A stretch of DNA of 64,000 bases from Ruminiclostridium herbifermentans (lineage in GTDB: Bacteria; Bacillota; Clostridia; Acetivibrionales; DSM-1351): assembly GCF_005473905.2 (NCBI RefSeq), contig NZ_CP061336.1, forward strand, positions 4,642,501 to 4,706,500, in the 5' to 3' direction. Every line of letters starts with the position of its first letter. The first letter of the stretch is position 1. The notes under the pieces were generated by a model that saw nothing but the letters and a program-made list of their open reading frames with translations, ran no database searches and had not been told where the DNA came from. Below are positions 37,501-54,822 of the stretch, piece after piece. The position numbers were made by a program, and so were the translations under genes.

Positions 37501-40500
37501 ATGGCTACTGAACTTATAGTAAATGGTAGTTTTGAAACTGGGACCTTCCCTCCGTGGGACGCTGTTGAAGCAACCATAACATCTTTATTCAGCCACACAG
37601 GAACTTATTCTGCGCAATTGCAAAATGGAACATCAGTTATATATCAAACTATTTATGGAGATTTCAGCCAACCTGTAGAAGTTAGTGCTTATCTAGCAAA
37701 ATTAGGAGCATCCCCCAATCCTGTAATATCTATCGTTCTTTCATATTTTGATAACGCATTTAGTTTTCTTGGAACAGGTCTTGTAATAAGTATTCCAGAA
37801 AGCAGCCTTCCTGATGTGATTGGAGGTGTCTGGTATAAAGCTTTTGGAACAACAATTACAGCACCCGTTGGAACAGACCTTGCCATTTTGTCTATCAGCA
37901 AAAACACTTTAGCTGGCGGTGCTGAAGTTCTAGTTGATGATGTATCTATTTTAGAAGGTCCTGTTAGTCCGACCGGACCTTCTGGGCCAACTGGACCTTC
38001 TGGACCTACTGGGCCTACCGGGCCGACTGGGCCGACTGGGCCTACTGGACCGACTGGACCTACCGGGCCTACTGGACCGACTGGACCCACGGGGGCTTCT
38101 GGTGGGCCGACGGGACCGACCGGACCTACTGGGGCTACTGGACCTACTGGTGTGACTGGTGCTACCGGTCCGACAGGTGTAACCGGACCTACTGGTGCAA
38201 CTGGGCCGACCGGCGCGACTGGAGCAACAGGTCCAATCGGAGCGACTGGACCGACTGGTACGACCGGACCTACCGGCGCGACTGGGCCTACTGGAGCAAC
38301 TGGGCCTACTGGTCCAACAGGTGCGACGGGGGCTACGGGCGCTACCGGACCTACTGGAGCGACCGGACCTACTGGTGTAACAGGTGCTACCGGAGCTACT
38401 GGGGCTACCGGTCCGACGGGTTCCACTGGACCTACTGGTGCAACTGGCCCAACCGGGGCTACTGGTCCGACTGGCGCTACTGGCGCAACGGGAACTACCG
38501 GACCTACTGGGCCTGCTGGCGCAACTGGACCTACTGGTGTAACAGGTCCAACCGGAGCGACTGGACCGACTGGTGCGACCGGTCCTACCGGAGCTACTGG
38601 GCCAACTGGACCTTCTGGCGCTACTGGGCCAACTGGCGCGACTGGACCAACTGGTGCTACGGGGCCAACTGGCGCGACTGGTATAACTGGGCCGACCGGC
38701 GCGACTGGAGCTACTGGACCTGCCGGAGCTACAGGACCAACTGGTTCTACCGGACCGACGGGGACTACCGGACCAACTGGTGAAACTGGTCCAACTGGCG
38801 CGACGGGGACTACGGGCGCTACTGGTCCGACTGGGCCGACTGGTGTGACGGGTCCAACCGGTGTGACTGGACCTACTGGTGTAACTGGACCGACCGGGAC
38901 TACTGGGGCTACTGGTTCAACCGGGGCTACTGGGCCTACTGGCGCGACTGGGGCTACCGGACCGACTGGAGCTACTGGAGCAACAGGTCCAACTGGCGCG
39001 ACTGGACCTACTGGTGAAACTGGTCCTACCGGCGCAACTGGTGCGACTGGACCTACTGGTTCTGCTGGAGCAACTGGACCTGCCGGAGCTACGGGACCAA
39101 CTGGTACTACCGGACCTACTGGCGCCACTGGGCCGACTGGGTCAACTGGTCCGACTGGGGCTACTGGGCCTACCGGCGTTACTGGCGCGACTGGTGCTAC
39201 CGGTCCAACGGGTGCAACCGGCGTAACAGGATCTACTGGGCCAACCGGAGCAACTGGGCCGACTGGTATAACTGGACCCACTGGGGCTACCGGGCCGACT
39301 GGTGTAACCGGACCTACTGGAGTGACCGGGCCTACCGGTGCTACTGGACCAACAGGTCCAACTGGAGCCGCTGGACCGACTGGTGCGACGGGTCCAACCG
39401 GTGCAACTGGGCCTTCTGGCGTGACAGGACCGACTGGTGTAACTGGTCCTACCGGCATTACTGGACCTACTGGTGTCACTGGACCTACTGGGGCTACCGG
39501 TGCTACCGGACCAACTGGGGCTACCGGAGCAACTGGTCCAACTGGAGCGACCGGTCCGACGGGGGCTACTGGGCCGACGGGTTCAACTGGACCTACCGGC
39601 GCTACCGGTCCGACGGGTTCCACTGGACCTACTGGTGCTACTGGCCCAACCGGGGCTACTGGGCCGACTGGAGCCACTGGACCTACTGGTGTAACTGGTC
39701 CTACCGGTGTAACTGGTCCTACCGGTGTAACTGGTCCTACCGGTGTAACTGGTCCTACCGGTGTGACTGGACCTACTGGTGTCACTGGACCGACCGGTGC
39801 TACCGGGTCAACTGGAGCAACTGGTTCAACTGGACCTACTGGTGTCACTGGACCTACTGGACCTACTGGAGCGACCGGGCCTACCGGGGCTACTGGCGTT
39901 ACTGGACCTGCCGGCGTTACCGGTGCTACTGGTGCAACTGGCCCAACCGGGGCGACTGGAGCCACTGGTCCAACAGGTCCAACCGGAGCGACTGGACCGA
40001 CTGGGCCTACTGGAGCTACTGGGCCTACCGGTGCAACTGGGCCAACTGGGGCTACCGGACCTACCGGTGCAACTGGGCCAACTGGGGCTACCGGACCTAC
40101 CGGCGCTACTGGCGCGACTGGGCCGACTGGAGCCACTGGAGCCACTGGAGCTACTGGAGCTACTGGACCTACCGGAGCTACGGGACCAACTGGTACTACC
40201 GGACCTACTGGCGCGACTGGACCGACTGGAGCTACTGGAGCAACAGGTCCAACCGGCGCGACTGGACCTACTGGGCCTACCGGCGTTACTGGCGCGACTG
40301 GTGTAACAGGTGCGACGGGGGCTACGGGCGCTACGGGACCTACTGGGCCTACTGGTGTGACGGGTCCAACCGGTGCAACTGGACCAACTGGACCGACTGG
40401 AGCCACTGGAGCTACTGGACCTACCGGAGCTACGGGACCAACTGGTACTACCGGACCGACTGGCGCGACTGGCGCTACCGGACCGACTGGAGCAACTGGT

Positions 40501-54822: not shown

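Follow-up and report, generated by a model that had tools for sequence, protein, structure and literature searches.

The window analysed here, i.e. the whole stretch of 64,000 nucleotides taken from the genome of Ruminiclostridium herbifermentans (an assembly of one contig, 4,817,678 bases), carries a giant collagen-like protein gene at positions 37501..54822 of the plus strand. One open frame runs from a GTG at 37489 to 54822 without any internal stop. The ATG at 37501 is the likely start codon; it was favoured because AAGGA lies 13 bases upstream and because the ATG column is invariant in an alignment of seven upstream regions. Read from this ATG, the product has 5,773 aa and a mass of 480.5 kDa, with a 158-aa N-domain and a 133-aa C-domain on either side of a Gly-X-Thr array (37975..54420, plus strand, residues 159-5640). 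The original prediction of a single collagen-like ORF of ~5,770 residues, with about 1,800 Gly-X-Y triplets between N- and C-terminal domains, was thus borne out.

The array comprises 1,827 Gly-X-Y triplets, in runs of 15 and 1,812 triplets parted by one extra residue, i.e. a single-residue slip (the alternative count of 1,828 arises because the two runs overlap in register). Its 5,482 residues would measure 1,568 nm if fully helical, at the figure of 0.286 nm per residue taken from the original prediction, so that the proposed rod of about 1.5 µm, several times longer than vertebrate collagen I (about 300 nm), holds by calculation. On the 1,828-triplet count, the Y position is Thr in 1,784 triplets and the X position is Pro in 818 (45 %), Ala in 645 and Val in 184. 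Lys, Arg, Asp, His and Cys are absent from the helical region, as are Gln and Tyr, and Glu occurs just 17 times, which makes the helix almost uncharged.

A 5,585-aa antisense frame (37689-54446, minus strand) was rejected as a gene: each antisense codon lies opposite the last base of a sense codon and the first two bases of the codon after it, an antisense stop therefore needs a sense codon starting with CA or TA, and as the helix is devoid of His, Gln and Tyr the frame is forced open along it. Horizontal acquisition, as might be read from the G+C content of 63 %, was rejected because GC3 is 0.31 in the array vs 0.25 in 24 neighbouring genes, the rest being explained by amino-acid composition. 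A candidate third collagen locus (genome position 3989845) was also discarded: it lies antisense to a 1,082-aa frame, and the region around that frame resembles, by eye, one for pilins and a prepilin peptidase.

A paralogous NTTRR-F1 collagen gene is located at 56597..58903 (or from 56561) on the plus strand (NF033675, 178 bits). The N-domains of the two proteins are 88 % identical, and a BclA_C domain (PF18573, 38.2 bits vs a cut-off of 38) is present in the paralogue but not in the giant protein. A swap of ends is one explanation for these different C-ends.

Terminal domains

The N-terminal domain (37501..37974, plus strand) belongs to the NTTRR-F1 family, with a match to NF033675 over residues 2-152 (175.3 bits vs a cut-off of 70); in a scan of the first 200 aa, a match to the collagen repeat (PF01391) was obtained from residue 157 on. 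The AlphaFold2 model of this domain (pLDDT 93.9, 43-row alignment) is a predicted beta sandwich, nearest to CBM16, CBM61 and CBM22 modules (Foldseek, 2zew_A, TM 0.76). In a sequence profile search, the best solved chain was an alginase (E 1e-4), followed by a porphyran-binding module and CBM61 (E about 0.01), and Pfam CBM_4_9 was matched under its cut-off. Trp19 and Trp111 are conserved without exception in a 43-row alignment of the domain (43 of 43 rows). A search of genome contigs using the single N-domain as query gave no match and was repeated with alignment A1. A phage origin of the domain was rejected, with no match in 50,697 phage records. No hydrophobic leader was seen by inspection of the N-terminus (MATELIVNG...), no cell-surface anchor family was retrieved by Pfam and NCBIfam scans of the two end pieces, and the exosporium-leader model (BclA-type short N-domain, BxpB attachment) was absent from the NCBIfam matches of the N-terminus.

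The C-terminal domain (54421..54819, plus strand) is predicted to adopt a TNF/C1q-like jelly-roll fold, on the basis of an AlphaFold2 model (pLDDT 95.3, 11-row alignment) matched by Foldseek to TNF-like lectins (2wq4_C, TM 0.68). Viral capsid and phage tail jelly rolls ranked as high, and no BclA chain occurred among the best 50 Foldseek matches. At the sequence level the similarity to TNF ligands was weak (E 0.03), and a Pfam search up to E 10 yielded no match, including to BclA_C (PF18573).

Among viral models, the best three matches of the C-domain were Cedratvirus collagen-like proteins (TM 0.91-0.96, 28-32 % identity). These proteins of giant viruses of amoebae resemble the giant collagen in their C-domain but are viral and only 352-529 aa long, one being a fragment. 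The likeness hints that spore formers and giant viruses have exchanged collagen modules.

Putative sigma-K promoter

A sigma-K-like promoter, AAC-N17-CATAATCT(A), is found at 37422..37449 (plus strand), 79 bp before the ATG at 37501, and was recognised by comparison with the sigma-K promoter consensus, spacing included. GCATA is invariant in all seven aligned upstream regions (seven genes from five genomes), which share a second CATA further upstream. In a pattern scan, both collagen genes of the window matched [AC]AC-N17-CATAnnnTA, the paralogue having its own sigma-K-like site at -75.

The motif (N16-18, CATAnnnT) is enriched upstream of NTTRR-F1 genes, i.e. it precedes 35 of 77 genes vs 19 of 392 controls from the same loci, for a pattern picked after viewing the promoters of the window and for related genes that are not independent. 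A strict form was found before 10 of the 77 genes and 4 of the 392 controls, and a third form (AC-N16-18-GCATA) before 13 and 20, respectively. These counts, and the taxon-group count below, leave out genes that had fewer than 120 upstream bases, contained gaps or lacked a start codon; identical upstreams were entered once, and controls were genes with a strong Shine-Dalgarno. When taxon groups were assigned by hand from locus titles, the motif was present in 15 of 26 groups; the simulated mean was 3.5 and the maximum 11, none of 10,000 simulations reaching 15.

Some observations count against control by sigma-K. The motif was not found in 11 of the 26 groups (including the B. subtilis group, with none of its 4 genes, and Metabacillus, with none of its 8), no sigma-K-like motif lies within 250 bp upstream of the glycosyltransferase genes, and the sites of the window also fit a loose sigma-E pattern. 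For the genes of genomes G004-G007, the site retained by the scan is ~20-25 bp more distant from the gene; it takes the other CATA as its -10, which is aligned with the -35 region of the window, so the promoter assignment is not unique. In favour of such control, the source genome carries an intact sigK (361 bits vs a cut-off of 298.65). In C. difficile, sigma-K promoters are described as having AC at -35 and a -10 element that closely resembles the sigma-E one, and bclA1-3 as being controlled by sigma-K (PMC3789822).

Glycosyltransferase neighbours

The conserved next gene encodes a GT2 glycosyltransferase with TPR repeats (55142..56224, plus strand; PF00535, TPR), and the divergent neighbour a GT4 glycosyltransferase with a methyltransferase (35064..37064, minus strand; PF00534, PF13649). 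At E ≤ 1e-60, GT2-TPR had matches (76-88 % identical) in eight of the ten other genus members, i.e. 9/11 with the source genome, and the GT4 gene in nine of the ten, i.e. 10/11. The order GT4-methyltransferase (opposite strand), collagen, GT2-TPR recurs in G004, G005 (where it encloses two collagens) and G007, and with gaps in G001. G002, the sole genome of the 11 without an NTTRR-F1 match, is also without matches to GT4 and GT2-TPR, a joint absence that represents one loss only; G008, a draft of 92 % completeness, is without GT2-TPR only.

Two further minus-strand genes could act on the same glycan: a GT2 glycosyltransferase (33838..34845; PF00535) may extend it and an FkbM-family methyltransferase (32743..33834; TIGR01444, 64.1 bits vs a cut-off of 37.7) may modify it. 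On the plus strand, a GDP-mannose 4,6-dehydratase gene (59167-60195; TIGR01472, 582.9 bits, above the cut-off of 415) and a GDP-L-fucose synthase-like gene (60276-61211; NF047922, 477.3 bits, below the cut-off of 500) may, from their position, be tied to the collagen. A WecB-like 2-epimerase gene (above cut-off) and an FnlA-like gene (UDP-GlcNAc 4,6-dehydratase/5-epimerase, below cut-off) are also located nearby.

The divergent GT4 gene itself differs between genomes. In four of them (G001:C5, G010:C34, G003:C14 and G004:C1) the match is limited to the GT4 half, with one TAG inside it in two of the four, and the methyltransferase half seems variable. In G005, G007, G006 and G008 (L050, L052, L056 and L058, respectively) the gene encodes 965-967 aa vs 666 aa in the window and may comprise an extra domain. 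Elsewhere in the window, the region 15089-28848 (minus strand) has the appearance of a lipid or natural-product cluster in its own right: it holds one acyl-ligase-like and one KAS III-like gene beside a 2,850-aa PfaA-like polyketide synthase (855 bits, below the cut-off of 1,010), and a PPTase, a hydrolase and another KAS III-like gene were recognised by eye.

Distribution and length among relatives

NTTRR-F1 was found above cut-off in 10 of the 11 genomes of the GTDB family (all of one genus), the source genome having two such genes. Within the order, 8 of 58 genomes have the C-domain, and these eight belong to Ruminiclostridium; by profile it was also detected in 7 of the 79 named loci searched, all seven outside Ruminiclostridium. 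Whole orthologues, in which a single frame covers both end domains, measure 754, 782 and 1,144 aa in G007, G004 and G005, respectively, which are genomes of one or two contigs; the giant protein, with 5,773 aa, is five- to eightfold longer. For R. sufflavum, the frame that ends in the C-domain is by itself 1,893 aa long, a 1,010-base gap included.

Among 392 Clostridia, 31 had any NTTRR-F1 match and 12 a match above cut-off, the longest other above-cut-off frame being 1,383 aa; below cut-off, frames reached 3,138 aa, counted without a collagen check. The next longest frame in the 79 named loci had 2,530 aa and 736 triplets, for flanks extending to 10 kb and several frames cut. A collagen-query survey, in which two candidates were scored per genome, matched 84 of the 392 genomes with a largest other frame of 2,062 aa, and is of limited use since the sense frame of the giant gene was itself absent from its listing. 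As draft arrays are often broken, other long arrays may be missed, and the giant gene is not put forward as the longest one known. Those 60 of the 79 named loci that matched at E ≤ 2e-10 (L063-L122) all come from Bacillota, many of them from endospore-forming genera. A literature search on collagen length, Ruminiclostridium with collagen, and NTTRR-F1 showed no report of this protein among the papers listed, in a corpus leaving most subscription journals uncovered.

Growth of the array and selection

Self-comparison of the array revealed many internal duplicates, the longest being 41461..42788 with its second copy at 46033-47360 (plus strand; 1,328 bp, 99.9 % identical); others measure, for example, 1,015 bp (98.3 %) and 887 bp (99.1 %). 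Codons were compared in eight of the 60 listed duplicate pairs, no codon being counted twice. Over the resulting 1,643 codon pairs, 47 differences were at third positions vs 11 at first or second positions, for a neutral expectation of 1:2 (p = 1e-13 against 2/3). Gly codons showed 19 differences, all at the third position, and no amino-acid change; the first- or second-position differences fell in X codons (eight) and Y codons (three). In a looser count of 13 duplicate pairs, with overlaps, the differences numbered 115 at third positions and 37 at first or second positions. From the duplicates and this codon pattern, we infer that the array expands by in-register recombination while its sequence is kept by selection; with near-identical copies of up to 1,328 bp, the exact copy number is provisional pending long reads.

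The array sequence is under selection at the protein level, which says that the sequence is constrained and not that the length is adaptive. The extra length could be incidental, i.e. drift in a repeat-expanded gene whose shorter orthologues would be equally functional, a view compatible with a spore location and suited to both the small size of the relatives' orthologues and the recent origin of the near-identical duplications. We regard it as somewhat unlikely, since the codon differences between duplicates reveal selection at the protein level and the frame stays open over all 17.3 kb.

A candidate spore hair

The giant protein is probably a very large, trimeric, Thr-glycosylated spore hair of ~1.57 µm, made by the mother cell in a sigma-K-dependent manner, i.e. 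BclA-like and of extreme size. The idea of a spore appendage, already part of the original prediction, stands up well: NTTRR-F1 membership, the sigma-K-like motif, the intact sigK, the conserved glycosyltransferases and the predicted TNF-like fold of the C-domain are all consistent with such a location. Expression would be driven by sigma-K in the mother cell, at a late stage of sporulation, and no signal peptide is visible, as expected for assembly from the mother-cell cytoplasm. Three chains would join via their TNF-like C-domains, with the Gly-X-Thr arrays winding into a ~1.57 µm rod. This rod would likely be stabilised by O-glycosylation of the Y-position Thr, carried out by the products of the two adjacent genes, GT2-TPR and GT4. 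One end would be anchored on the spore surface and the other exposed, and recombination between repeats would lengthen the hair in 9-bp steps, leaving the frame unchanged. SgtA of C. difficile, whose gene is just upstream of bclA3, is described as adding beta-O-GlcNAc to Thr of collagen repeats (PMC7157674), and the spore appendages of C. sporogenes as being up to 1-2 µm long, albeit 20 nm wide (PMC4942563).

The closest known systems are informative as to what is shared and what is not. NTTRR-F1 proteins (NF033675) have the N-domain, the Gly-X-Thr array and Bacillota hosts in common with the giant protein, which is far longer. BclA proteins (Bacillus anthracis group; BclA1-3 of C. difficile) likewise hold a collagen region between an N-domain, described as 38 residues long, and a C-domain described as forming trimers (PMC10470788). 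In the giant protein, by contrast, NTTRR-F1 replaces the 38-residue NTD, the C-domain is without BclA_C match and the size is far larger. Variation of the collagen region in BclA reportedly alters filament length, a result attributed to Sylvestre in 2003. The sigma-K control and neighbouring SgtA of C. difficile BclA have their counterparts in a sigma-K-like motif and neighbouring glycosyltransferases, known here from sequence. GP85 and CL2 of C. taeniosporum and BclA-like proteins of C. sporogenes are described as clostridial collagen-like proteins of the spore surface, GP85 being a glycoprotein, with collagen-like regions of 239 residues in GP85 and 129 in CL2 (PMC5749712, PMC4942563); they were likened to the giant protein by description, and the regions in GP85 and CL2 are much shorter. 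Annelid (Riftia) cuticle collagens are described as having a very long triple helix, stabilised in one of them by glycosylated Thr (PMC11766948). This is an animal protein and the likeness is one of design only, no homology being claimed; great length is therefore not unique to the giant protein among collagens.

A vegetative or biofilm surface adhesin, with a collagen stalk and a carbohydrate-binding head tying cells to plant fibre, is in our view very unlikely, as the N-terminus has no hydrophobic leader by inspection, the end pieces contain no surface anchor family and the promoter motif is sigma-K-like. Such a role would accord with the predicted CBM-like N-domain and with a cellulosome-bearing host: we found four large cohesin proteins with 14, 6, 7 and 5 cohesins (from 37 match rows) in the source genome, and R. 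herbifermentans is described as having four scaffoldins of 5 to 14 cohesins each, from one operon (PMC11557425). It would also have a precedent in ClpB/ClpC of B. amyloliquefaciens FZB42, described as Gly-X-Thr proteins with a predicted galactose-binding N-domain and roles in biofilm and root adhesion (PMC4319854). An assembly error that inflated or mis-joined the array is highly improbable, because the source genome is a single contig, most listed copies differ at some bases, 17.3 kb are read without frameshift and the R. sufflavum array is long too (471 triplets in its gapped frame), even though copies reach 1,328 bp at 99.9 % and several draft relatives show gaps or contig ends inside their arrays.

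Returning to the spore hair, a bolder version of it appears fairly unlikely as a whole: the protein would form a near-uninterrupted helix of ~1.6 µm, among the longest or the longest anywhere, in which glycosylated Thr replaces hydroxyproline, with a CBM-like head tethering the spores of this cellulolytic bacterium to plant fibre and a length tuned by repeat recombination.

Taken as it stands, the giant collagen is a real, intact, extreme-length variant of a known collagen of spore formers, surprising in its length and with a function that we infer. If made and folded, it would be a 480-kDa chain forming a triple helix about five times as long as collagen I without the hydroxylation and secretion machinery of animals. 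It would then test the reach of a Thr-glycosylated helix and how the length of spore hairs is set, and would bear on why the same gene differs five- to eightfold between sister species. For materials work, the protein may also provide very long bacterial collagen from a natural source.
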